From Bryocella elongata (GTDB lineage: Bacteria > Acidobacteriota > Terriglobia > Terriglobales > Acidobacteriaceae): a stretch of 64,000 bases of DNA. A program made the position numbers and the translations under genes. This document shows positions 37,457 to 60,123 of this stretch, in pieces; positions within the stretch are counted from its first letter, which is position 1, and each line of letters opens with the position of its first letter. Under the pieces are notes generated by a model. It was not told where the DNA came from, did no database searches, and was given only the letters and a program-made list of their open reading frames with translations. The stretch spans positions 310,001 to 374,000 of the forward strand of contig NZ_FNVA01000006.1 in assembly GCF_900108185.1 (NCBI RefSeq). The letters are read 5' to 3'.

Positions 37457-37563
37457 ATCACATCTTCGGGCACATTCGTACAGCCCCGCTGATTCGCGCA
37501 ATACGCTGATTGGCGTGGCTTTTGTCTTTCGCAGGGGTTCGCGGGTGTTCGTTGCCTGCCGGG

Positions 37564-37646
37564 GGAATGTGGGGGCATAATGGGGGGCACACCGTCATCC
37601 ACGTGGGGGCACATTCCTGGTTGGGTGGTTGTGTCCCTATTATGCC
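37564..37646. promoter_or_regulatory. Nested inverted and direct repeats upstream of int
   Basis: GGAATGTG (37564-37571) with CACATTCC (37610-37617); GGCATAAT (37574-37581) with ATTATGCC (37639-37646, including the int ATG); GTGGGGGCA twice (37569-37577, 37603-37611). These could be integrase arm-type or Xis/AlpA binding sites controlling int. Confidence 0.5.
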
Positions 37647-38832
37647 ACTCACCGACATGGAACTCCGCGGCCTCAAGCCTGGGACGAAGACTCGTAAAGT
37701 CTTCGACGGGCAGGGGCTCTACCTGCAGATCGAACCCGGCGGCGCGAAGTACTGGCGGCTGAAGTACCGCTTCGCCGGCGTGGAGAAGCGGCTCGCGCTT
37801 GGCGTCTATCCCGAAATCGGTCTCAAGCGCGTGCGGGAGCTGCGCGACGATGCGCGGCGTCTGCTGGCCGAGGGGAGAGATCCCGGCGTCGAGCGGCGCG
37901 TGCAGCGTGCCATGGCGGCGGCGCAGCTCGAGAACAACTTCGAGGCGATCGCCCGCGAGTGGTTTGCGATGCGCGAGAAGATCTGGGCGCATAGTCATAG
38001 CGATCGCGTGCTCCGGCGGCTCGAGCGCGACGTGTATCCGGTGATTGGCAAGCGGCCGATCGGCGAGCTGACGGCGCCGGAGGTGCTGGCGTTGCTGCGC
38101 CGCGTCGAGCGCAGGACGGTGGAGACGGCGCACCGCATCATGCGGGACGTCGACCAGATCTTCCGCTACGCCATCTCCACCGGTCGCTGCACGCGGAACA
38201 TCGTGCCGGACCTCCGTGGGGCGCTGCAGCCCTACAGTAACGACCACTTCGCAGCAACGCTCGATCCCAAGCGCCTGGGAAGCATCCTGGCGGCGATGGA
38301 TCGCTACACCGGCACGCAGGTGGTGTGCTCTGCGCTGCGGCTGGCGCCGCTGGTGTTTGTGCGGCCTGGTGAGCTGCGGATGGCGCTTTGGAAGGACATT
38401 GACCTGGACGCGGCGGAGTGGCGCTATCACGTGCCGAAGACGGGGACAGATCACATCGTCCCGCTGTCGAGGCAGGTGGTGGCGATCCTGCGGGACCTGC
38501 ATGACGTGACGGGGCAAGGGCAGCGAGTGTTTCCGGGGGCTCGATCGCCGTCCCGGCCCATGAGCAATATTGCGGTGCTGGTGGCGATGCGCAGCCTCCA
38601 GATCGGCAAGCAGGAGATGACGGGTCACGGCTTCCGCGCGGTGGCGCGCACGCTGCTGGATGAGGTGCTGGGCTTCCGGCCGGACATCATCGAGCACCAG
38701 CTGGCCCACGCCGTGAAGGACCCAAATGGAAGGGCCTACAACCGGACCTCGCACCTTCCGGAGCGGCGTCGCATGATGCAGGCCTGGGCAGACTATCTGG
38801 AAGGGCTAAAGGCTTCAGAGGTTGCGGGATGA
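37642..38832 (+). CDS. int: Prophage integrase, P4-type tyrosine recombinase
   Basis: 396 residues from ATG 37642. The N-terminal DUF4102 arm-binding domain (FDGQGLYLQIEPGGAKYW) is followed by a SAM-like core-binding domain (about 95-180) and the catalytic domain with Arg in VRPGELRMALW, HGFRAVARTLL, and the nucleophile Tyr in RAYNRTSHL followed by RRRMMQAWADYL. All key residues are present. It catalyses integration at the adjacent tRNA-Met. A longer frame reaches 37510 but starts within the repeat region and lacks family similarity. Confidence 0.95.
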   Translation: MPLTDMELRGLKPGTKTRKVFDGQGLYLQIEPGGAKYWRLKYRFAGVEKRLALGVYPEIGLKRVRELRDDARRLLAEGRDPGVERRVQRAMAAAQLENNFEAIAREWFAMREKIWAHSHSDRVLRRLERDVYPVIGKRPIGELTAPEVLALLRRVERRTVETAHRIMRDVDQIFRYAISTGRCTRNIVPDLRGALQPYSNDHFAATLDPKRLGSILAAMDRYTGTQVVCSALRLAPLVFVRPGELRMALWKDIDLDAAEWRYHVPKTGTDHIVPLSRQVVAILRDLHDVTGQGQRVFPGARSPSRPMSNIAVLVAMRSLQIGKQEMTGHGFRAVARTLLDEVLGFRPDIIEHQLAHAVKDPNGRAYNRTSHLPERRRMMQAWADYLEGLKASEVAG

Positions 38833-38846
38833 AAGATGTCAATCTT

Positions 38847-39842
38847 CTAGATTGCGGAAACGCTGCCTTCGTTCGTTGTCGCGGCGAGCAGCTCGGTCAT
38901 GATCCTGCGCCCTGGAGCTGATGGTATCGCTGTTGGCGACGTTATGACGAAGCGGCAATTCTTGAATAAGATCCTTGAGATAGGTGCCAGGGATTTCTCG
39001 CCAGAATAGTGTATTTCGACCATCGAAAGGCGAAGGACGATGTCTTTGTATTGGGGGTGATCGTGTTGGAAGATCAGTATCGACTTCCCTTCGCCGACCG
39101 TCCAGAAGCGTTCATCATCCAGATCGAGGCGGCAATTCTTCAAATCGACGAGAAGGCCGTCCGGTTGAGGGGGCGAGTCCTTGGTTAGCGGCCGTTCGTC
39201 AAGGTCCGAAATATCGGGCAATATCTGCCGGGTCGCTGTGTTGCAGTCGGTCTGAGGGATCGCCTGGGAGTCGGCGGCGAACTTGTAATTCACCAGTTCT
39301 GCGGCGGCTTGCCATGCTTGGGGCAGCGTTGGGTGCTGCTCGACGACATGAGTCATTGCGGCCGACAACTCCCCTACCTTTTTCTGATCGGGACGCTTGC
39401 CCTGCACCTGGGCGGTCTCGACTGTGGCGATGACGGTTGAAAGGCTTGCCTGAAGCTGTTGCGGACTCTTGGGGTCTAGGAGAGCCGTGATGAGGGGTTT
39501 GCCACTGTTGGCGTCCGAAACGTTCTGCTTGATTGTTGCGATGCTGAAGGATACCCAGGCTACCCAGCCCACCACTGCTGTCGCGGCGACACCGATAAGG
39601 ACGTGATGTAATGATCGATACTTTGGGTCGAGGCGCTCCTCGATCTTTGCAACGCGAACTAAGAGGTCGGTGAATTCTTTTTGTGAAGGTCCTGCCAACG
39701 GATCATCCCCCTCGAGGGCGGACGCTTCCGCTGCCGCCGTATCCAGCTCGGCATCCTCGGGCGTCACCTGCTCTATCGTTTCGCCCACAAGGCTACGGCT
39801 TGCGGCTTCGGCTGGCAAGGGGGATGTGAGGGCGGGGCTCAT
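38847..39842 (-). CDS. Prophage accessory membrane protein, unknown
   Basis: 331 residues from ATG 39842. Structure: an acidic, Ala-rich cytoplasmic N terminus, a probable coiled coil (LLVRVAKIEERLD near 72-84), one membrane helix (VLIGVAATAVVGWVAWVSFS near 92-111) and a soluble C-terminal domain of about 200 residues with no motif I know. A late FKNCRF and paired cysteines may matter. Its ATG overlaps the stop of the AlpA-like gene, so they form a leftward pair next to int. Possible lysogenic-conversion or exclusion factor; no direct evidence. Confidence 0.6.
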   Translation of the reverse strand: MSPALTSPLPAEAASRSLVGETIEQVTPEDAELDTAAAEASALEGDDPLAGPSQKEFTDLLVRVAKIEERLDPKYRSLHHVLIGVAATAVVGWVAWVSFSIATIKQNVSDANSGKPLITALLDPKSPQQLQASLSTVIATVETAQVQGKRPDQKKVGELSAAMTHVVEQHPTLPQAWQAAAELVNYKFAADSQAIPQTDCNTATRQILPDISDLDERPLTKDSPPQPDGLLVDLKNCRLDLDDERFWTVGEGKSILIFQHDHPQYKDIVLRLSMVEIHYSGEKSLAPISRILFKNCRFVITSPTAIPSAPGRRIMTELLAATTNEGSVSAI

Positions 39843-40090
39843 TGCGCGCTGACGGACATGCGGCTGGCGCACCAGGCGTCAATCTCGCGGGCGCGCCAGC
39901 CTACGGACTTGCCGCCCAGGGAGACGGCCTTGGGGAAGCTGCCATCCCGCATGCGCATGTAGATGGTGGTGGTGCGGAGTCCCGTCGCGGCCATCACCGC
40001 CGGCAACCGCAGGATGCGGTTGGGGATGCAGGCGGCCGCCTGCTGATGGGGCGTCGGATCGACGTCGATGGCTTCGCTGGGGTTCGGCAT
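39839..40090 (-). CDS. AlpA-like phage regulator (excisionase-type HTH)
   Basis: 83 residues, with the MerR/AlpA-like winged-helix pattern ILRLPAVMAATGLRTTTIY followed by the short DGSFPKAVSLGGKSVGW-type strand-turn and a final helix (REIDAWCASR). These proteins regulate P4-type integrases or act as excisionases. Position next to int fits. ATG 40090 chosen; a longer frame exists upstream. Confidence 0.85.
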   Translation of the reverse strand: MPNPSEAIDVDPTPHQQAAACIPNRILRLPAVMAATGLRTTTIYMRMRDGSFPKAVSLGGKSVGWRAREIDAWCASRMSVSAQ

Positions 40091-40149
40091 GCTTGGCTCC
40101 TGGTGCGTGATAGGCTCTGCGGAAGAAAACTTCACTGCGGAGGTGGTTC

Positions 40150-44100: not shown

Positions 44101-44663
44101 AGACGGCAATGGCAGTGGCGATAGCGCCAACGGCGAGGGAGGTCCAGGCGGGCGAAGGCCTGGGCCAGAGTGAGAGGGGCGCATGCGGGATCAAGATCCT
44201 GTGCGCGATCTCGGGATGCAATGCGGGTGCGGGGAGGACCGGCTTCTGCGGCGAGTGTCTGCCCCAGGTGGCGGCGATTCTGCTGCGGGATATGCGGCTG
44301 CTGCGGATCAACCCGGCGACGCTGGATGCGGCGTGGTTCCGCGAACAGACGGGCGGCATCCTGAACCGGGACGAGTCGCAGGAGCTGCGCCGCGCGGTGA
44401 TGGCGGCGTGGGCTGGGAGGTCGATGCCGCAGGGCGCGCGCGTCCGCGACCTGATGCAGGACTTCGATTCGACGCTGGTGAAGGACGAGCCGGCGAATCG
44501 CGAACGTCGCGCCGCGCTGATGGCGAAGCTGCCGCGCATCCATGTCGAGGATGAGGCAAAGCGGCAGCAGGGCACGCCCTGGTGGGCGTGGCAGTTTCTT
44601 GGCTGGACGGTAGCGGCCCTGATCGTCGCGTTGTTTCTCGCGGGCAAGGGGCGTGCCTGGTGA
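44097..44663 (+). CDS. Zinc-ribbon and membrane-anchor protein
   Basis: 188 residues from ATG 44097. Four cysteines in CAISGCNAGAGRTGFCGEC (about 36-54) resemble a small zinc ribbon; the middle is helical; a C-terminal membrane helix (FLGWTVAALIVALFLAG) ends the protein. Function unknown. It is directly coupled to the ParB-like gene (GTG at 44660). Confidence 0.55.
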   Translation: MKTAMAVAIAPTAREVQAGEGLGQSERGACGIKILCAISGCNAGAGRTGFCGECLPQVAAILLRDMRLLRINPATLDAAWFREQTGGILNRDESQELRRAVMAAWAGRSMPQGARVRDLMQDFDSTLVKDEPANRERRAALMAKLPRIHVEDEAKRQQGTPWWAWQFLGWTVAALIVALFLAGKGRAW

Positions 44664-46591
44664 GCGAGAGACAGATTGTTGAGATTCCCATTGCAGAGAT
44701 CCGGCCTTCGAGCACGAACCCTCGGCGCACCTTTGACGAGGCCAAGCTGCAGGAGCTGGCGGCATCGATCCGCGAGCATGGCGTGCAGACGCCGGTGCTG
44801 GTGCGCTGGTGGGGCGGAGAGTCTTCCTACCAGCTGGTTTATGGCGCTCGCCGCCTGAGGGCTTCCGAGCTTGCGGGCAAGGTGACTGTGCCCTGCGAGG
44901 TCCGCGAGATGACGGACGCAGAGGCGAGGGACGCTCAGATCATTGAGAACCTGCAGCGCGCCGACGTGGACCCGGTGGAGGAGGCGCAGGCCTTCGGTGA
45001 GCTGCTGGAGGCTTCGGGCTCGATTGCTGCGGTCGCGGCGCGGGTGGGCAAAGAGCAGAGCTACATTGCGAAGTCGCTGCGGTTGAACGCGCTGACGCTG
45101 CCTTCGAGCGATGCGCTGCGGGCGAGGCTGATCACCATCGACCATGCGCTGCTGCTGGCTCGCCTGGCGGAGACGGAGCAGAACGCGGCGCTGAAGTGGA
45201 CGCTGGACCACAGTGCCGGCGCGAAGATGACGGTGGAGAAGGTTCTCGAGGAGCGGCTCGCGCGCGTTGCGCAGGAGGCTGAGGACCGCAAGGAGGCTGA
45301 GGCTGAGGGTGAGCGTCGCTTCCGTCACTACACATGGGAACCGCAGTCTGTCGTCAAGCTGAAGGCGTGGATCGAAGCGGAGTCGGGCATTCTGCTGAGC
45401 CGCGCTCCCTGGTCGCTGACGGAGGAAGACTACCTGCTGCCCGATGTGGGGCCGTGCTCGGAGTGCCCGAAGAACACGAAGGCCAACGCTCCACTGTTTG
45501 GCGATCTCGTGATGGGCGAAGCGACGTGCACGGACGGTGCATGCTTTGCGGCGAAGACGGCCGGGTTTGTGCAGATTGAGATGCGCAAGGCCGGGCATGA
45601 CGAGCAGGCCAAGCCCAAGGTGCTGGTGCCGCGGCTGAGCTGGAAGGCCTCGAGCGTGAAACCTTCGGTGGTGCCGAACGATATCAAGGTGATCATCGAG
45701 ACGCCGGGGCGCTGCGGTGAGACCGCCAACCCCGCGAAGGTGTTGAAACAGGGTCAGTGGATCGAGGCGAAGCCGGGCAGCTGTGTGAACGTGCGTCCGG
45801 GCGTGACGTGCGACTGGAGCGACGACGGCCAGCGCGGCTACATGGGCGACGACAAGAAGCTGCGCAAGCCTGGCGAGGTGCTGCAGGTGTGCATCGCGGT
45901 GGGCTGCAAGACGCACCGCAAGGAGTGGGAGAAGCCGAAGGCTGCGGGAAACACTTCGCAGCGGCCCGATCCTGCGGCGCAGAAGAAGGCCGAGGAAGAG
46001 GCGGCTCATGTCGAGAAGATCGAGCGCGAGATCCGCGCGAAGATTCTCTTCGCGATCCTGGGCAAGCTGGATGCGACCAAGGCGGTGCGGCTGGTCGCAG
46101 ACAAGCAGCAGGATGCTGCGGGGTGGCGCAAGCGCATCCTCGCTGTGATGCCGGAGCTCGGCGGCGAGACGCTCGAAGCCTTCATCGTCTTCTGCTCGGA
46201 GTTTGCTGGCTACTTCCATGCGAACAGCTACTGGCTGATGCAGCAGGGCGGCGTTGCGGAGAGCCGCAAGCACGTCTTCGCGCTGGCGAAGAGCGTAGGC
46301 CTCGATGGCGCGCAGATCGCAGCCAAGCACTTCCACGACGGCGGCATTGCGCCCTGGTCGGAGCGGCTGTACCCGAAGGGCGTTCCCTGGCCGAAGGGTG
46401 AAGGCTCGCCCGCGAAGAAGGCCATGGCAAAGAAGACGGCTGCTAAGAAGGCGGTTGCGAAGAAGCCGACGCTCACTCCGGAGCGGCGGAAGAAGATCGC
46501 GGCTGAGATGAAGAAGCGCCTGGCTGGGAAGAGGAAGGCTCAGCCGAAGGCCAAGGGTTCACGAAAGATCACGGCGCAGACCGTGGGATAG
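44660..46591 (+). CDS. ParB/Spo0J-type protein with histone-H1-like tail
   Basis: 643 residues from GTG 44660. The ParB N-terminal nuclease/CTPase-like domain is clear: IPIAEIRPSSTNPRR (box I), LVYGARRLRASELAG (the GERR-type CTP-binding motif region) and AQIIENLQRADVDPVEEA (box II), then an HTH near 140-165. A roughly 300-residue middle region with several cysteines (CSECPKNTK, CTDGACF) may bind metal. The C terminus is Lys/Ala-rich (AKKAMAKKTAAKKAVAKK), like bacterial histone H1 analogues. No ParA is adjacent. A DNA-organising or replication role is plausible. Confidence 0.75.
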   Translation: MSERQIVEIPIAEIRPSSTNPRRTFDEAKLQELAASIREHGVQTPVLVRWWGGESSYQLVYGARRLRASELAGKVTVPCEVREMTDAEARDAQIIENLQRADVDPVEEAQAFGELLEASGSIAAVAARVGKEQSYIAKSLRLNALTLPSSDALRARLITIDHALLLARLAETEQNAALKWTLDHSAGAKMTVEKVLEERLARVAQEAEDRKEAEAEGERRFRHYTWEPQSVVKLKAWIEAESGILLSRAPWSLTEEDYLLPDVGPCSECPKNTKANAPLFGDLVMGEATCTDGACFAAKTAGFVQIEMRKAGHDEQAKPKVLVPRLSWKASSVKPSVVPNDIKVIIETPGRCGETANPAKVLKQGQWIEAKPGSCVNVRPGVTCDWSDDGQRGYMGDDKKLRKPGEVLQVCIAVGCKTHRKEWEKPKAAGNTSQRPDPAAQKKAEEEAAHVEKIEREIRAKILFAILGKLDATKAVRLVADKQQDAAGWRKRILAVMPELGGETLEAFIVFCSEFAGYFHANSYWLMQQGGVAESRKHVFALAKSVGLDGAQIAAKHFHDGGIAPWSERLYPKGVPWPKGEGSPAKKAMAKKTAAKKAVAKKPTLTPERRKKIAAEMKKRLAGKRKAQPKAKGSRKITAQTVG

Positions 46592-49586: not shown

Positions 49587-49900
49587 ACCTTGCCTCGGGG
49601 TTGCGGGTGTATGAGACGCGCAAGGGGGAGTGGTTCCTTGCGCGGTCGGTGGCGGAGGCCGTGGCCACGGTGTTGCGCGTGCACCAGGTGGCCACTGAGG
49701 CCGAAGCGAAGCGGCGTGGGCTGTTGAGCGGCGATGGCCCGCGCGAGCTCAGCGACCTCGAGCTGCGGCAGCAGCCGATCGATGTGAAGCGTGAGGGCGG
49801 GCGCGGGCTGATGAACTTTGCGGAGTTCCTGGAAGAGATCCAGCCGGAGGATCCGGACTTCTTTGCCAGCGTGGTGTGGGATAGGCCGTGGGTGCGATGA
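49583..49900 (+). CDS. Prophage hypothetical protein
   Basis: 105 residues, begins MNLASGLRVYETRKGEWFLAR. Mixed fold; ends EIQPEDPDFFASVVWDRPWVR. It overlaps the 5' end of the XRE regulator gene (ATGA). No assignment. Confidence 0.5.
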   Translation: MNLASGLRVYETRKGEWFLARSVAEAVATVLRVHQVATEAEAKRRGLLSGDGPRELSDLELRQQPIDVKREGGRGLMNFAEFLEEIQPEDPDFFASVVWDRPWVR

Positions 49901-50253
49901 GTGCAATGGGATCGATGAGCGTGGCGGGGTGGAGTATGGCGAACGCGGAAGGACCATGGCCGGCGGCGGTGCAACCGCAGCTGCCGATCGGCGAGGTGTT
50001 GCGGGCTCGGCGGCTTGAGCTCCGGATGAGCCAGGCGCAGGCCGCGGGGCGTGCTGATGTCGAGCAGGCCAACTATGCGCGGTACGAGCAGGATGCATTG
50101 TGTCCGCAGATGGGGACATTGCTGCGTCTCGCGTACGCGCTTCGATTGCCGGCGTCGCAGATCCTCGAGCGCGCTGAAGATCTCCAGCGTCATCGTGGCC
50201 GCCAGCTGGACGCTCGCAAGGTGCTGGGAGATCTGCTGCGGGGTGGGGAATGA
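49897..50253 (+). CDS. XRE-family HTH regulator
   Basis: 118 residues from ATG 49897. The HTH is IGEVLRARRLELRMSQAQ with RADVEQANYARYEQ as the recognition half (about residues 25-60). Typically such genes are phage repressors or regulators. It lies late in the early region rather than next to the operators, so its target is unclear. Confidence 0.8.
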   Translation: MSAMGSMSVAGWSMANAEGPWPAAVQPQLPIGEVLRARRLELRMSQAQAAGRADVEQANYARYEQDALCPQMGTLLRLAYALRLPASQILERAEDLQRHRGRQLDARKVLGDLLRGGE

Positions 50254-50582: not shown

Positions 50583-51854
50583 GTGAGTGTGCAAGACATG
50601 TGGTATTACAACGGCCTGGCGGCGAGCCGCATGGGCCGGGATGGGAATCCGCTTTCGCCGGCGGAGCTGCGCGTGTTAGAGCGGCTGTGCTTCCAGCACA
50701 ACGCGGCGGTGTGGTGCTCGTGGGAGAACATTACGGACATGGCCGGCAAAGCGATGCTTTCTCCGGGACATTGCCGGCGAGTTCTGGCGGAGCTTGAGCG
50801 CCGGGGCATGGTGCTACGTTTTGCCGTGGTAGTGGAGGCTGAGCGTGGTGTGAAGCCGAGCTCGACGAATGAGTACGAGCTGCCCGGGCTGCTGGATGCG
50901 ATGGGCGATGAAGAGCGCGAGCGGTGGCTCCAGCTCAAGCGGTCGCAGGCGAACCGCGACAGGTACTGGCGTAGGCGGCGTGTGAGGACCAACGCCGAGG
51001 TGAGCGTGCGCCGTGGCGGCCGTAAGTCACGCGTGGTGCCGATTGGAAGTAAGCAGGTGCGGGACGTTGCCGCCCAGGGCAGGTTGGATTTGTCGGCTGG
51101 GGCAACGATGGAGGACCTCGCGGCGTCGTTTGTCGCGAGCTGCACGACGGTTGAAACGGCCGCCCAGGGTGTGGAAGATTCATCGGCTGGGGCTGTGGAT
51201 ACGGAGCGTGCAGGCGTTTTTTTTGACGTGGAGATGTTTGCCGGGGGCAATCAAAATGTTTGTGGGGGGCAAACAAAATGTTTGCCCTCGAGTACTTGTA
51301 GTGAGTGTGAGGAGTTTACCTGTCCATCCCCCTTACCCCCTTCCGTCGCTGCGGAGATCTGCAAGAGCAACAGCAACGGCAAGGACAAGAGCGCTGGGAT
51401 AGCGGGTTGGCCTGGTGAGGCGGTGCGTGCGGCCTCAACGCGCGGGCAGCGTCGCCAGCGCGCGCCGGTGGAGGCGGACGATCCCGAGGTGCATCGGGAG
51501 GTTCTTGCGGTGCTGGCGTGCACCGGGATAGCTCCGGGTGCTGCGCGTCGTCGCCTGTACCTGGCGGTGCAGCGAGCGCTGGAATGGTTCTGCAGCGAGC
51601 AGGAGTGTGCGCCGGCGGTGGGCGGCGATGTGATGCGAGAGATGTGGTCGCTGTACCTCGCCGCGAAGCCGTACCTGCTGCAGGTGCGCTGTCCGGACGT
51701 GCGCCGGTTCTACGCCGATGGCTTCTGGACAGACGTGAAGATGTGGCCGTGGATGAAGCATGAGCTTCGCGCGTGCCCGATCCGGCGGGGCGGAAAATAT
51801 CTGTTCTACGAATTCGCCAGCGGCAAGAAACTCGACACTCGGCTGCTCATGTGA
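50583..51854 (+). CDS. HTH protein, probable phage replication initiator
   Basis: 423 residues, GTG start. The N terminus is a winged helix (RVLERLCFQHNAAVWCSWENI; MLSPGHCRRVLAELERRGMV at about 60-79), the arrangement of phage O-like or DnaD-like replication proteins. A low-complexity middle section follows, within which the DNA carries 22-bp iterons (51234-51287). The C terminus is a helical domain (RRRLYLAVQRALEWF, MREMWSLYLAAKPYLL). Replication initiation is inferred from HTH plus in-gene repeats; no helicase loader gene is recognised next door. Confidence 0.6.
   Translation: MSVQDMWYYNGLAASRMGRDGNPLSPAELRVLERLCFQHNAAVWCSWENITDMAGKAMLSPGHCRRVLAELERRGMVLRFAVVVEAERGVKPSSTNEYELPGLLDAMGDEERERWLQLKRSQANRDRYWRRRRVRTNAEVSVRRGGRKSRVVPIGSKQVRDVAAQGRLDLSAGATMEDLAASFVASCTTVETAAQGVEDSSAGAVDTERAGVFFDVEMFAGGNQNVCGGQTKCLPSSTCSECEEFTCPSPLPPSVAAEICKSNSNGKDKSAGIAGWPGEAVRAASTRGQRRQRAPVEADDPEVHREVLAVLACTGIAPGAARRRLYLAVQRALEWFCSEQECAPAVGGDVMREMWSLYLAAKPYLLQVRCPDVRRFYADGFWTDVKMWPWMKHELRACPIRRGGKYLFYEFASGKKLDTRLLM
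51217..51287. repeat. 22-bp iterons inside the replication-type gene
   Basis: T8 tract (51217-51224), then 22-bp units at 51234-51255 and 51256-51277 and a partial third from 51278. Each begins ATGTTTG and ends CAANCAAA. Because 22 is not divisible by 3 the reading frame changes between units, so the conservation is at DNA level. Possible replication origin, as in the lambda O gene. Confidence 0.7.
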
Positions 51855-52184: not shown

Positions 52185-52598
52185 GTGTCGAAGCGTTTTC
52201 AGCTGTGTGTGGAAGACAGCCGTACCGGCAATCTGCGGGTGCAGATGCATGTCACCCTCTTCGAGGGCGATCTGCTGGTGAGACAGCGCAAGGCGGAACG
52301 CGTGGAAGACGCAAGTGGTGTGCTCATCGGGTTCAAGCTGCGTACGACGCAGGGAGCTCCGGCGAAGCTGAGGCCTGCGAGTCTGGGGATGCTTCCGATT
52401 GTGGCTTCGCAGCAGAGAGAGTCCTGCCGCGCGATCTCGCGAGCCGAGGTCGAAGCCAACGCTGGGCTGCGCGGTGTTTCGAAGACGGCGCACCTTACGG
52501 ACGAGCAGCGGGTTGAGCGTATCCGGCGGCACTGGACCGACGTGGATGCGATCGAGGCGGCGCAGGACAAGGTGAGAAGTTATCTCGGTGTGCACTAA
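52185..52598 (+). CDS. Prophage hypothetical protein, GTG start
   Basis: 137 residues, GGAGACG close before the GTG. Starts MSKRFQLCVEDSRTGNL; beta strands then a helical C terminus (LTDEQRVERIRRHWTDVDAI). Unknown; directly ahead of the lysis-type genes. Confidence 0.5.
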   Translation: MSKRFQLCVEDSRTGNLRVQMHVTLFEGDLLVRQRKAERVEDASGVLIGFKLRTTQGAPAKLRPASLGMLPIVASQQRESCRAISRAEVEANAGLRGVSKTAHLTDEQRVERIRRHWTDVDAIEAAQDKVRSYLGVH

Positions 52599-52646: not shown

Positions 52647-52889
52647 ATGGCGGAGACGCTCGCCGAACTAAGATCGACCGTTGCCCGAATGCGGAGGCAG
52701 GTCGATAAGCATGATGTGGACCTGTACCAGGGCTCAGGGAAAGACGACCCATCACTGACGACGAGGATGGCCCTTGTGGAAGATTGCGTTGGCAAGATCC
52801 GGAGTCATCTCTCGCGTATCGTGTGGCTGCTGGTCGCGGCATTGATCACGGGCACCGTGGATGTCATCGTTCACGCCACACGTCACTAA
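52647..52889 (+). CDS. Small coiled-coil and membrane-helix protein (XhlA/holin-accessory-like)
   Basis: 80 residues: a helical N-terminal half (AELRSTVARMRRQVDKHDVD) and one C-terminal membrane span (SRIVWLLVAALITGTVDVIV). Topology is that of phage XhlA-type or accessory lysis proteins, and it lies just before the endolysin. Assignment is by architecture and position only. Confidence 0.5.
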   Translation: MAETLAELRSTVARMRRQVDKHDVDLYQGSGKDDPSLTTRMALVEDCVGKIRSHLSRIVWLLVAALITGTVDVIVHATRH

Positions 52890-52940
52890 GCTTCGCGGAG
52901 AACCTGCCGCGAAAACCTGTCACTTGCCAAGGTGACTGCC

Positions 52941-52980
52941 GAAGGCCTGTACGCTTCGCCGCGTGCAGGCCTTCACCGTT
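52941..52980 (+). terminator. Hairpin before the endolysin gene
   Basis: 14-bp stem GAAGGCCTGTACGC / GCGTGCAGGCCTTC (one G.T), loop TTCGCC, 52941-52974, with a short T tract. Terminator or mRNA-stability element. Confidence 0.6.
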
Positions 52981-52999
52981 TCGAGTGTGGAGTTGCGAG

Positions 53000-53506
53000 A
53001 TGGCCGTAATCACTGCAGAGCAGGCTGGCGGAGCGGAGCTGGTCGCCTTCCTGGACCTGATCGCTTGGAGCGAAGGAAGCGATTACAACGTGATCGTCAC
53101 CGGTGCTGATGGGCGTCGTGAGATCTTCACGGACTTCTCCGAGCATCCGTTCATGAATCGTTCGCCGAAGCTGATTCGCGCGGCGAACCCTTTGGTGGCT
53201 GGATCGAAGCCGTTGTACTCGGACGCGGCTGGCCGGTATCAGTTCATGCGTCGTGGCTGGATCCAGCTGGCGCTGCAGTTGAAGCTGGGTGATTTCTCTC
53301 CGCTGTCGCAGGACCGTGCGGCGCTGGAGCTGATGCGTGAGCGTGGCGCGTTGAGGCTGCTGGGCCAGGGTCGCGTGCAGGAAGCGATTGCAGCGTGTTC
53401 GAACATCTGGGCGAGCATGCCGGGCAACACGTATGCGCAGCCAGGCGGGAAGAAGATGGTCGACCTGATGGGGAAGTACTCGCAGCTGCGAGGTTCGGTG
53501 GCGTAG
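53000..53506 (+). CDS. Endolysin, lambda R-type lytic transglycosylase (GH104)
   Basis: 168 residues. Strong likeness to lambda gpR: AFLDLIAWSEGSDYN with catalytic Glu25, IFTDFSEHP, GRYQFMRRGWIQLALQL, DFSPLSQDRAALEL, AACSNIWASMPG. Cleaves murein glycan with 1,6-anhydro formation. No signal peptide is visible, so it needs a holin for release. It stands within a group of membrane genes that fits a lysis cassette. Confidence 0.92.
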   Translation: MAVITAEQAGGAELVAFLDLIAWSEGSDYNVIVTGADGRREIFTDFSEHPFMNRSPKLIRAANPLVAGSKPLYSDAAGRYQFMRRGWIQLALQLKLGDFSPLSQDRAALELMRERGALRLLGQGRVQEAIAACSNIWASMPGNTYAQPGGKKMVDLMGKYSQLRGSVA

Positions 53507-56057: not shown

Positions 56058-56501
56058 ATGGGCGGCCGTCCTCGTCAACCGATCAAGGTACTCGAGCTCA
56101 GGGGCTCCACGTCGCACGATAAGAAGCGCTACGCATCCCGCGTGGCCGCTGCTGATGTCGCCTCAGCCCGCGGCGGTGTAGGTGACCCTCCGGCGCACTG
56201 GTCGACGCCCTGCAGTATCCCGCCTGGCGCGCGCGAGGCCATCTGGCATGAGAAGGTAGCCGAGTTCCCTCCGGGTCTGCTCACCGTCGAGCATCGGGCT
56301 CTCCTGGAGCAGCTCTGCACTGCGATCTACGAGTCCCGGCGTCCGGGCAAGATGCAACTCCGCTACATCGCGGAGGTCACCAAGATCCTGCGACTCTTCG
56401 GCATGACGCCGCTCGATCGCGAGAAAGTCAACACGCACGCTGCCGGACCGGCGAAGCCTGTCGGCAAGCTCGCTGCGTTCGTGAATCGCAGAGCGGGATG
56501 A
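56058..56501 (+). CDS. Terminase small subunit (P27-like)
   Basis: 147 residues, ATG 56058 after GAAAGAAGGG. Starts MGGRPRQPIKVLELRGST, the typical P27/TerS opening; contains ARGGVGDPP and WHEKVAEFPPGLLTVEHRALLEQLC. It recognises phage DNA for packaging and hands it to the large subunit. It overlaps the large-subunit gene by 4 bp. Confidence 0.85.
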   Translation: MGGRPRQPIKVLELRGSTSHDKKRYASRVAAADVASARGGVGDPPAHWSTPCSIPPGAREAIWHEKVAEFPPGLLTVEHRALLEQLCTAIYESRRPGKMQLRYIAEVTKILRLFGMTPLDREKVNTHAAGPAKPVGKLAAFVNRRAG

Positions 56502-58282
56502 CCAAGGCGACGGTTCAGCGTGAGCGGAAGACACGCCGCGCTGCCGAAGCCACGCCCCGCAAGCCCAGGGAGCCACGCAAGCCGAAGGTTCACCCCGCCG
56601 AGCAATACCTCCGGGACATCGTCGACGGCAAGATCGTCGCCTCTAAGTTCGTTCGTCAGGCGGCCCGCAGGCACTTCCAGGACCTCGAGCACGGCTCCGA
56701 CCGGGGACTCAAGTTTGACCCCGAAGCGGCACAGCATTGCATCGACTTCTTTCCCGCCTTCCTTACGCACCAGGAGGGCGAGTTCGCCGGCAAGCCGTTC
56801 CACCTCACGCCCGATCAGCAGGCGAAGGTGTGGATCGTCTATGGCTGGCAGCGCTGGTCGGAAGAGCGCAACCGGTACATCCGGCGCTTTCAGTTTGTCT
56901 ACAACGAGGAGGGACGAGGTAACGGCAAGTCGATGTTCGTCTCAGGCCTCTGCCTGTACGAACTCATCGCCTTCGGAGAAGTCGGTGCGTGGGTCTACTC
57001 CGCGGCCACCGATAAGAAGACGGCGCGCCTGGTGTGGGACACCGCCGCGCAGATGGTCCAGAGCAATCCCGAGCTGCGGGAGCTCATCGAAAAGCGTGCT
57101 GGCATCGCCAACATGCACGTTCCGGGGACTGCGGCCAAGTTTGAGGCTGTCGCTTCGGACAGCGATAACCTGCTGGGTCTGCGGCCGCAGTTCACGTCGC
57201 TCGATGAGCTTCATGTGCATGCCAACTCCGGCGTCTGGGATGTCTTCGAGTCCGCCATGGGCAAGCGCGTCGAGCCGCTGCTCTGGGCTATCACCAACTC
57301 CGGCTACGATCGCAACTCGGTCTGCTGGCAGAAGCGCGAATACGCCATCAAGGTGCTGGATGCCGAGATCTCCGGCGATACCAGCTTCCGCAATGACACG
57401 TGGTTCGTATGGATCTGCGGCATCGACGACGAAGACGACTGGGAGGATGAAACCTGCTGGCGTAAGGCGAACCCCAACCTCGGCATCTGCGTATCGATGG
57501 ACGAGCTCCGGCAGAAGGCTGCCGTAGCGAAGGGTGATCCCTCTGCGCTCAACTCGTTCCTGCGCTTCCGGCTCTCGCGCTGGACGGAGGGCCACACCAC
57601 CTGGATGCCTATGGATCGGTGGGATGAGTGCGGTGGGACGCTCGACGAAGATGAGCTTGCAGGCCGGCATTGCATCGGTGCGCTCGATCTATCGACGACG
57701 ACGGATATCGCGCCGTTCTGCATGCTCTTTCCGCCCACTGAGGACGACGACCGGTGGGCCGTGTTGCTCAAGTACTTTCTTCCGAAGGAGAACCTCCAGG
57801 CCCGCGTCAAGCGCGATCGCGTGCCGTATGACGTCTGGGAGCGGGAGGGCCGCTTCATTCTTACGCCGGGCTCGGTCATCAACTACCAGGCCATGCGCAA
57901 GGAGATCAATCGCTGCGCGGAGAAGTTCGACCTCAAAGAGATCTGCTACGACCGTTGGAACTCCACGGATCTGGTGCGCAACCTCGAGGAAGACGGCTTC
58001 GAGATGGTCAAGTGGGGCCAGGGCTTCAACGATATGAACGCGCCGATGAAGCGCCTCATGGAGCTCGTCCTCGGTCGCGAGTTCAACCATGGCAACTGCC
58101 CCGTTCTGCGCTGGATGGCGCGCAACACGGTGGCCTATCTAGACCCCGCCGGCAACATCAAGCCGGACAAGGCGAAGTCGAAAGAGAAGATCGACGGCAT
58201 CGTCGCAACCATCATGGCCCTTGGCCGTGGCATGCAGGTCGCCGGGCCTCAGTACATCGATTCGGACGTGATCTACCTATGA
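56498..58282 (+). CDS. terL: Terminase large subunit
   Basis: 594 residues. ATPase domain with Walker A GRGNGKS near residue 150 and Walker B FTSLDELHV near 235; nuclease domain with Asp in GALDLSTTTDIAP near 395 and Asp in KEKIDGIVATIMALGR near the end. It matches the YmfN/Terminase_1-type packaging ATPases. It powers DNA translocation into the prohead. Adjacent small subunit and portal confirm the role. Confidence 0.94.
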   Translation: MTKATVQRERKTRRAAEATPRKPREPRKPKVHPAEQYLRDIVDGKIVASKFVRQAARRHFQDLEHGSDRGLKFDPEAAQHCIDFFPAFLTHQEGEFAGKPFHLTPDQQAKVWIVYGWQRWSEERNRYIRRFQFVYNEEGRGNGKSMFVSGLCLYELIAFGEVGAWVYSAATDKKTARLVWDTAAQMVQSNPELRELIEKRAGIANMHVPGTAAKFEAVASDSDNLLGLRPQFTSLDELHVHANSGVWDVFESAMGKRVEPLLWAITNSGYDRNSVCWQKREYAIKVLDAEISGDTSFRNDTWFVWICGIDDEDDWEDETCWRKANPNLGICVSMDELRQKAAVAKGDPSALNSFLRFRLSRWTEGHTTWMPMDRWDECGGTLDEDELAGRHCIGALDLSTTTDIAPFCMLFPPTEDDDRWAVLLKYFLPKENLQARVKRDRVPYDVWEREGRFILTPGSVINYQAMRKEINRCAEKFDLKEICYDRWNSTDLVRNLEEDGFEMVKWGQGFNDMNAPMKRLMELVLGREFNHGNCPVLRWMARNTVAYLDPAGNIKPDKAKSKEKIDGIVATIMALGRGMQVAGPQYIDSDVIYL

Positions 58283-58461: not shown

Positions 58462-60123
58462 TTGAGCCTCATCGAATCCATGTTCTCCGGCATGCGCATG
58501 CTCGCATCCGATGTCTCGGGCTCCGCCGGCGCCTATGACGACTTCTGGTATGAGCCCATCGGCGGTCGCAACAGCGCCGCCGGCATCCGCGTCTCGCCGG
58601 AGACCTCGAAGAAGCTCGGCGTCGTCATCGCGTGCGCTTCGTCACGCGGCAAGACCATCGCTATGCTCCCGTTCAAGGTGCGTCGGGATCTTCGCGGCGG
58701 CGGCAGCAAGGTCATCGCAAACCATCCGGTCTGGCGGCTCATCGCAAAGCGCCCGAACTCGTTCCAGACCCCCTATGACTTCCGCCTGATGCTGAACGCT
58801 CACGTGGATCTGCGCGGCAATGGCTATGCGGAGAAGGTGGGGAATGTCCAGGGCTATCCGGAGCAGTTGCTCCCGATGCATCCCGACCGCGTTCGCGTCG
58901 ATGTCATTCCAAAGACCGGAAGGCTGATCTACATCTACAACGATCCGCTGCTCAACAAAGAGCGTCGGCTCGTTCAGGAAGAGGTCTTTCACCTCCGCGA
59001 CTGGAGCGATAACGGTTACACCGGACAGTCGCGCATCACCATGGGGCTCGATCCCTTCGGTGTGGCCCTCGCGCGGCAGGATTACATGTCGCGGTGGTTC
59101 AAGAATGACGCTCGCACAGGCATCGTCTTCGCTGGAGGAGACTTCAAGGACGACGAGGCGAAAGAGAAGTGGGTTGAAAAGATGCGCGCGGGTGGCACGG
59201 GTGCCAACCGCGGCCGTCCCATGTGGACTCCGAAGGGCATGACGGTCTCCCAGATGGGAGTTACGCCTGTCGATTCCCAGCTCATCGAGGGGAAGAAGGT
59301 CTCCGACCAGGAGATCTGCTCGATCATGGGGGAGTATCCCCATGTCATCGGTATCGATGCCGGCAAGGCTGCAACCTACGCCTCTGTTGAGCAGTTCAAC
59401 ATCATGCGCGCGCAGAACGTCGTGCACCCCATGGTCATCATGTGGGAGCAGGCGGTGCAGCGCGATCTTCTGCTGGACGACGCCGAATATAGCCATCTTT
59501 CGATGGCCGCGCTCATGCGTGGCGACAACGCGACGCGCTTCGCTGGCTATGCGACCGCGATCGAACACGGTTGGCTCTCTCCGGACGATGTTCGCGAGCT
59601 GGAGGACCTCAATCCGATCGCGGATGGTGCGGGTAAGGTCTACTGGCGCCTGGCGGCGTTGCTGCCGTTGAAGCAGATTGAAGCGCCTGCCAAGCCGGAG
59701 CCAGCAGCAGGGGATGAATCGGACGATGACGACGCCCCGGAGGATGGCGCGGGAGGCGATTCCGATCCGAAGGCGATGAATCCCACAAAGCGCGCGCAGT
59801 TCGAGATGCTGGCGCTCTCCCAGGCGGAGCGTTGTGTGCGTCGCGAGACCGCTGAAGTCCGCAAGATGATCGATCGCCGCGCCGCCGGGTCGGAGGTCGC
59901 CGAGTTCTACACGAAGCATGCGGCGTGGATAGCTGAAATCTTCCATTTGAACGCGAAGATCTCTCTTGAAGTGCGGTCTGCCTGTGACGATCGCGGCCAG
60001 CAGCTGGCGATGCACCTCGCGGACGAGGATGACGAGTTCCTCGCTGCCGCGCAGGTGTGGGTTGAGCAGATTGCAGCAACCGAGCCCCGAAAGCTCGCGA
60101 AACTCGCCGTGGAGGGCATCTAG
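58462..60123 (+). CDS. Phage portal protein (HK97 family), TTG start
   Basis: 553 residues; the TTG at 58462 directly follows the upstream TAA with GGGAGAAG ahead. Portal features: KKLGVVIACASSRGKTIAMLPF, HPVWRLIAKRPNSFQT and the central wing/stem region with GDNATRFAGY. After about residue 415 there is an acidic linker (GDESDDDDAPEDG) and an unusual extra C-terminal helical domain of about 110 residues. It forms the dodecameric DNA gate. Confidence 0.9.
   Translation: MSLIESMFSGMRMLASDVSGSAGAYDDFWYEPIGGRNSAAGIRVSPETSKKLGVVIACASSRGKTIAMLPFKVRRDLRGGGSKVIANHPVWRLIAKRPNSFQTPYDFRLMLNAHVDLRGNGYAEKVGNVQGYPEQLLPMHPDRVRVDVIPKTGRLIYIYNDPLLNKERRLVQEEVFHLRDWSDNGYTGQSRITMGLDPFGVALARQDYMSRWFKNDARTGIVFAGGDFKDDEAKEKWVEKMRAGGTGANRGRPMWTPKGMTVSQMGVTPVDSQLIEGKKVSDQEICSIMGEYPHVIGIDAGKAATYASVEQFNIMRAQNVVHPMVIMWEQAVQRDLLLDDAEYSHLSMAALMRGDNATRFAGYATAIEHGWLSPDDVRELEDLNPIADGAGKVYWRLAALLPLKQIEAPAKPEPAAGDESDDDDAPEDGAGGDSDPKAMNPTKRAQFEMLALSQAERCVRRETAEVRKMIDRRAAGSEVAEFYTKHAAWIAEIFHLNAKISLEVRSACDDRGQQLAMHLADEDDEFLAAAQVWVEQIAATEPRKLAKLAVEGI

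Follow-up and report, generated by a model that had tools for sequence, protein, structure and literature searches.

Locus and prophage setting

Judged by its genes, the window (the whole 64-kb stretch of DNA that was analysed) contains a prophage. Genes for an integrase (37510-38832) and an excisionase-like protein (39839-40135) are followed, in the early region of the apparently integrated prophage, by a gene for a ParB-like protein of 669 aa with ParB_N and HTH_ParB domains (44582-46591). An HTH repressor-like gene (HTH_31; 49888-50253) then lies upstream of the gene that is the subject of this study, a probable replication-initiator gene on the forward strand (50583-51854; GTG start, 423 aa). 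Further on are found genes for an endolysin (within 52784-53506), the large subunit of the terminase (56498-58282) and a portal protein (58462-60123). Two ORFs follow the initiator gene, of 137 aa (52185-52598) and 80 aa (52647-52889); no helicase loader was recognised there, and a scan of the first against Pfam and PHROG found nothing. A viral contig of 44,978 bp encodes a 100% identical copy of the initiator protein.

The encoded protein

The gene is probably that of a replication initiator because its product is linked, through its C-terminal domain, to relatives that match replication-initiation PHROGs. The protein itself has no PHROG match at E ≤ 1 and no NCBIfam match, and its sole Pfam match is a sub-threshold one to MarR. 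An AlphaFold2 (AF2) model, built with ten relatives, divides the protein into a winged helix at the N-terminus, a long linker that is probably disordered, and a domain at the C-terminus. The winged helix-turn-helix domain (aa 26-99; 50658-50879, forward strand) is modelled with pLDDT block means of 84-93 over most of its length and 47-67 in places, and the PDB structures matched by the first 107 residues are ordinary winged helices (MarR, Fur, TFE-like; Z ≤ 9.1, with many ties). Residues 146-295 are mostly of low AF2 confidence and probably disordered. The C-terminal domain (aa 301-398; 51483-51776, forward strand), which is predicted to be helical and carries the motif FxxDGxWxxxxxWPW, has block means mostly of at least 90, and a mean pLDDT of 82 when modelled alone; a Foldseek search of the PDB with this domain returned five matches, none of them usable (best E 7.7), which is no proof of a new fold.

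The iteron array

An earlier note on this DNA had described about two and a half copies of a 22-bp unit following a T8 tract inside the gene, and these are real: a T8 tract (51217-51224) stands upstream of two full units (51234-51255 and 51256-51277, the second identical to the first at 19 of 22 positions) and a partial third unit (51278-51287), whose first 9 bases match unit 1 and which is the copy best conserved in the closest homologue, all on the forward strand. As the note had stated, the amino acids encoded across the array (EMFAGGNQNVCGGQTKCLP) do not repeat, 22 not being divisible by 3. The codons of the array specify aa 218-235, inside the low-confidence, probably disordered linker between the two domains that are folded in the AF2 model.

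The array can also be read as five 8-bp half-sites of alternating orientation (51235-51286, no strand), which agree at 37 of 40 positions and start at exact 11-bp steps: TGTTTGCC at 51235, GGCAATCA at 51246, TGTTTGTG at 51257, GGCAAACA at 51268 and again TGTTTGCC at 51279. Together, the fourth and fifth half-sites make up a perfect dyad, GGCAAACA-AAA-TGTTTGCC, with a 3-base centre (51268-51286, no strand). Part of the array falls within the 60-bp stretch that is the AT-richest in the gene (51249-51308; 42% GC vs 64% gene-wide). The spacer of 40-41 bp that leads from the array to a pair of C-tracts, described below, is not A-rich (A 20%, T 34%); an A-rich, T-poor 36-mer (A 39%, T 3%) is found past the C-tracts, at 51359-51394 on the forward strand. 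Upstream of the array, the linker holds a separate imperfect direct repeat of 35 bp (77%), in frame, at 51069-51103 and 51159-51193, 90 bp apart; in the homologue L047 a similar repeat of 40 bp is present in three copies, spaced at 39 bp (2538-2655).

Several null models were used to ask how readily such an array arises by chance. The best 22-base tandem match at any period from 15 to 45 is 19/22. Among 500 shuffles of the gene's synonymous codons one equalled it, and among 500 dinucleotide shuffles none did; the match at the array is the sole one of its kind in the 64 kb. The agreement of five half-sites at 11-bp steps (37/40) was reached in 0 of 500 shuffles under both nulls, by a statistic picked post hoc when the array had already been seen; no second array in the window scores 33/40 or more. 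With up to 2 mismatches, the 17-bp core of the dyad occurs at 2 sites in the 5.67-Mb genome, both within the array and 22 bp apart, and the same core reversed, as a control, gave 1 match. Other features are less telling. The 8-3-8 palindrome taken singly is not significant (22 of 500 shuffles), and the T8 tract, the only one in the 64 kb, is not strikingly rare, as 15 of 100 shuffles also yield one. A generic word-cluster test (k = 10, synonymous shuffles) did not flag the array (p 0.69), in our view because the array is short.

The closest homologue

Apart from the prophage itself, the sole relative found to cover nearly the whole protein is L047, from the viral contigs, with 41% identity over residues 8-423. 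The earlier note had named the absence of repeats from homologous genes as grounds for giving up its reading, and the comparison gave no such grounds: the L047 gene keeps the period, its best period-22 match (17/22) lying at the place homologous to the array. A match of this quality was reached in 2 of 1000 synonymous shuffles anywhere in the gene and in 3 of 1000 at the homologous place. About 110 bp, from the T-tract to the C-tracts, align between the two genes without a gap, with T7 in L047 where the window has T8. Because the spacer bases of the iterons differ, being G-rich in the window and C-rich in L047, it is mainly the core CAAAATGTTYG (CAAAATGTTYGCCCTCGAGTA) that the two have in common. 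L047 also has a C-tract pair, CCCCCTTTCCCCC, at the same place, but its spacer between array and C-tracts is A-rich (A 44%, T 17%), unlike that of the window. The generic word-cluster test was not passed by L047 (p 0.12), nor has its protein a PHROG match at E ≤ 0.1. A comparison of codon identity was set aside as resting on too few residues: all 5 of the 5 identical residues in aa 229-240 use the same codons, vs 55% of the 159 identical residues overall.

Relatives and their iterons

Of 300 genomes searched within the family, 7 had a match, from which the genome itself, L005, L008 and L010 were kept; a profile made from these four was run on 399 genomes of the class and found matches in 31. 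Protein searches of phage and plasmid collections, together with scans of genome contigs, gave no match. Six candidates (L006, L007, L009, L034, L037 and L040) were judged to be chance matches or other protein families. Left out as short or cut were L021 (150 aa, which scored high in the iteron test), L028 and L029; L044 is a copy of L014 and L059 of L058, L046 (the same match as L045) stood outside the tested set, and L051-L054, L057, L060 and L061 duplicate known loci.

The relatives share with the window protein either the C-terminal domain (FxxDGxW...WP) or the N-terminal HTH part, and for ten (L005, L008, L010, L013, L014, L015, L018, L020, L023 and L032) there is a match to a PHROG of the O-like or replication-initiation kind. 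The C-terminal domain is fused to quite different N-terminal parts in L005 (952-1959), L042, L043 and L025; the N-terminus of L025, L026 and L042 is of another type (MxRIRT-type), and no iterons were found in these three genes.

Mid-gene iterons at a level reached by 0 of 99 synonymous shuffles are present in 21 of 35 genes, with copies in 2-3 reading frames each. A further five genes gave p 0.02-0.05, including L031 and L045, in which all copies are in one frame, and nine failed this generic test (the window gene, L047, L019, L025, L026, L027, L036, L042 and L058). Judged by position, the arrays of the relatives sit past the N-terminal HTH part. Their words vary (AAGGGTGACA-like, CGACATGACA, GAGACGACAA, ACACCGGACA, AACCGCCAAA and others). 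The proposal that one unit spans two helical turns is in keeping with their spacing: 59 of 72 same-strand gaps of up to 60 bp deviate from a multiple of 11 by at most 1 bp, for which a naive binomial probability is tiny, but the gaps inside one gene are not independent. A run of T6 or longer near the array occurs in 8 of 23 genes vs a mean of 0.25 under a null that counts T6 anywhere in the gene, which is not decisive.

A whole-gene test of dyad centres was rejected as evidence, since most other centre lengths were raised too and the result (centre 3 in 23 of 35 genes, null mean 16.1, maximum 23) says nothing special of this centre. In L008 (gene offsets 496-509), L013, L016, L032, L055 and L056, the direct copies are preceded by two iteron words in inverted orientation, whose centre of 3 bases is as long as that of the window dyads. 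Repeated GAACC-type, T-poor words were seen between the iterons and the remainder of the gene in the linkers of L014, L022, L023 and L032, as well as in L184; such words recall single-strand repeat motifs at other origins.

The paired C-tract element

About 40 bp past the array, the window gene carries a paired C-tract, CCCCCTTACCCCC (51328-51340, forward strand; frequency 0.05 in synonymous shuffles), with no G5 hairpin arm and no stem, as is also the case in L047. The pattern C5-N(1-4)-C4 is present in 13 of the 20 genes that have the C-terminal domain vs 1 of the 15 that do not, in genes whose proteins differ greatly from one another, and its reading frame varies among these 14. For 11 of the 14 it appears in at most 7% of synonymous shuffles, the exceptions being L010 (17%), L014 (31%) and L058 (32%). 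In the relatives the pair mostly lies 40-75 bp past the last iteron (about 104 bp in L020), and L014 and L048 have an additional pair 12 and 5 bp from it. Among the 12 genes having both the 36-mer and the C-tracts, the T-poorest 36-mer begins before the C-tracts in only 5 (L008, L012, L013, L018 and L056).

In many relatives the pair is followed by a G-run that is able to base-pair with it. A test for hairpin stems past the C-tracts, which in L010, L014 and L048 was applied to a C-run lying ahead of the one that has the G arm, gave P < 0.05 in 3 of 17 genes (L008, L012 and L045), and because of this weak outcome the hairpin is suggestive only. The C-tract with G-run is rare at the level of whole genomes: those of six relatives have six distinct sites between them, of which five lie in the replication gene, with none in G460, and the reversed pattern gave five rows, all from G052. 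The window's own genome has three sites, none in this gene (5 rows, equal to the 5 of the reversed control).

The viral contigs were also scanned with the C-tract/G-run DNA pattern only, which gave at least 120 stretches (L062-L181). In the first 80 of these, 74 with both flanks, strong iteron clusters were found upstream in 31 and downstream in 0; without near-copies the counts are 20 of 51 and 0 of 51. For the 120 loci listed, 111 have both flanks, with clusters upstream in 50 and downstream in 2, and removal of near-copies leaves 81 loci, 73 with both flanks, with 27 upstream and 1 downstream; by the same score, 46 of these 73 have no strong upstream cluster. Among the matches listed, the last iteron lies 23-69 bp from the element, and the 45 bases upstream of the element are 46% GC, 39% A and 16% T, vs 62% GC downstream. 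The reversed pattern, as a control on the same contigs, gave 48 stretches, with clusters upstream in 0 of 44 and downstream in 1 of 44; 40 of the 48 (L187-L234) are two near-identical conserved sequences unrelated to iterons.

When the ORFs over the element were collected from the 80 listed loci (16 were dropped for want of a 200-aa ORF or as copies), 40 of 64 matched PHROG 678 (O-like initiation) and 36 of 64 PHROG 9327 (primosomal). The element-bearing ORFs align with a mean column identity of 6%. In the blind set of 65 ORFs the element lies in frame 0 in 40, in frame 2 in 18 and in frame 1 in 7; the frames are thus uneven and the element is not frame-free, so that selection for a proline-rich peptide may account for part of the conservation of the C-tracts. 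In six isolated phages including lambda, it is present in two (Bordetella phage vB_BaM-IFTN2 and Escherichia phage vB_EcoS-683R6) and absent in four.

No description of a C-tract element at phage origins was found among the titles and beginnings of abstracts listed by searches of open-access literature, which is not proof that it is unpublished. A text search with the letters of the element gave, among the matches listed, many papers on fish, bird or turtle mitochondrial genomes, and otherwise papers on other subjects, with no title on phage origins; the likeness to mitochondrial genomes is taken as coincidence.

With somewhat less than even confidence, we propose that many phage in-gene origins have a second module at the level of DNA: C5, 1-4 bases and C4-5, often followed by a G-run capable of a hairpin, mostly 23-75 bp past the last iteron, and with an A-rich, T-poor stretch between. 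Such a module could serve helicase loading or priming by folding the opened strand, or it could act as a barrier to melting. The window has the C-tract pair without the G arm and without the A-rich spacer.

Weighing the explanations

We consider it likely that the array is the initiator-binding part of a lambda-style, theta-type origin inside the gene, and that it is bound by the winged-helix initiator which this gene encodes. Going by the dyads, the phasing and the fold, the winged helix would bind the 22-bp iterons, probably as dimers on the 8-3-8 dyads, along one face of the helix and with one subunit per 11 bp. By analogy with lambda, assembly on the array would lead to melting of nearby DNA, and the C-terminal domain would recruit the replicative helicase of the host. 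Placing the sites within the codons of the linker would let initiator and origin travel together, and because that linker is probably disordered, the iterons should be free to change without harm to the protein.

The array could instead be an operator, through which either the product of this gene or the HTH repressor-like protein encoded at 49888-50253 controls transcription rather than replication. Operators are typically dyads of the kind that winged helices bind, and the HTH_31 gene is directly upstream, but the core is confined to this gene and occurs nowhere else in the genome, and among the relatives, arrays are likewise found mid-gene where the gene matches a replication-initiation family; we regard control of transcription as quite improbable. 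The few copies and the missing hairpin arm would also suit a former in-gene origin of a prophage that no longer replicates, in which the copies have degenerated and the A-rich spacer has been lost, all the more as the closest homologue, L047, has such a spacer. Against such decay stand the intact gene, the perfect dyad of the last two half-sites, the presence of integrase, terminase and portal genes, and L047 itself, which retains the spacing without indels and likewise lacks the hairpin arm. Decay is improbable on this evidence; because the spacer of L047 is A-rich and that of the window is not, slightly less weight is given to a working origin and slightly more to a decayed one, and by the same difference in composition the window could hold a weakened form of such an origin, or one of another sort. 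Least probable, and very much so, is a neutral tandem duplication in a linker under low constraint. It would fit the probable disorder of the linker and the second imperfect repeat there (35 bp at 51069 and 51159), but not half-sites that alternate at 11 bp, a period that L047 retains, or the mid-gene arrays of the relatives.

Significance

Phage replication genes are hard to spot from protein sequence, and the window gene, which matches neither PHROGs nor NCBIfam, is a case in point. Iterons within the gene, phased at 11 bp, and the C-tract pair mark such genes in the DNA and allow them to be located without protein similarity. In the relatives, the iteron sequence varies widely while spacing and position stay constant, which makes them a natural set for studying joint change in winged-helix initiators and their sites. 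Should the C-tract element prove to have a part in helicase loading or priming, it would help to explain how phage origins link the opening of the strands to the loading of the helicase, a question that is still open.

Comparison with known systems

Iteron plasmids of the RepA/RepE type have initiators that bind iterons in helical phase, the iterons usually being outside the gene; the window gene has no PHROG, Pfam or NCBIfam match to the Rep families. In the replication genes of Escherichia phage vB_EcoS-683R6 ("DNA replication protein O") and Bordetella phage vB_BaM-IFTN2, the linker shows, by eye, an A-rich stretch and short repeats, and the C-tract pair with G-run is present. By eye, their N-terminal parts and iterons are unlike those of the window; in the Escherichia phage a DnaC-like gene adjoins and the C-tract spacer is longer.

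In the lambda O protein a disordered linker joins a winged helix at the N-terminus to a C-terminal domain, the layout that AF2 also predicts for the window protein. The four iterons annotated in the lambda ori are situated within the initiator gene, between its N- and C-terminal parts, as is the array of the window, and the earlier statement that lambda iterons lie within that gene agrees with the annotation, which places them there at 20-24 bp steps. In the account of PMC7466680, the lambda origin is in the middle of the O gene, with iterons that adjoin an AT-rich tract, and work cited there found two iterons and an AT-rich stretch to be enough for unwinding. Lambda differs from the window in its iteron sequence and its C-terminal domain and has no C-tract pair, and a P-like loader neighbour is not recognised beside the window gene. 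PHROG families 391, 1032, 270 and 678 (O-like or replication initiation) are matched by relatives, mainly through their N-terminus, and not by the window protein or L047 at the thresholds used, whereas relatives that share the C-terminal domain do match O-like families. The earlier description of a lambda-like origin therefore stands for the layout, with in-gene iterons near 22-bp steps, and falls for membership of the lambda O family, given that no PHROG is matched. The best explanation is that the probable origin in the window resembles the lambda ori in its working, through a protein that is not a recognised relative of lambda O.
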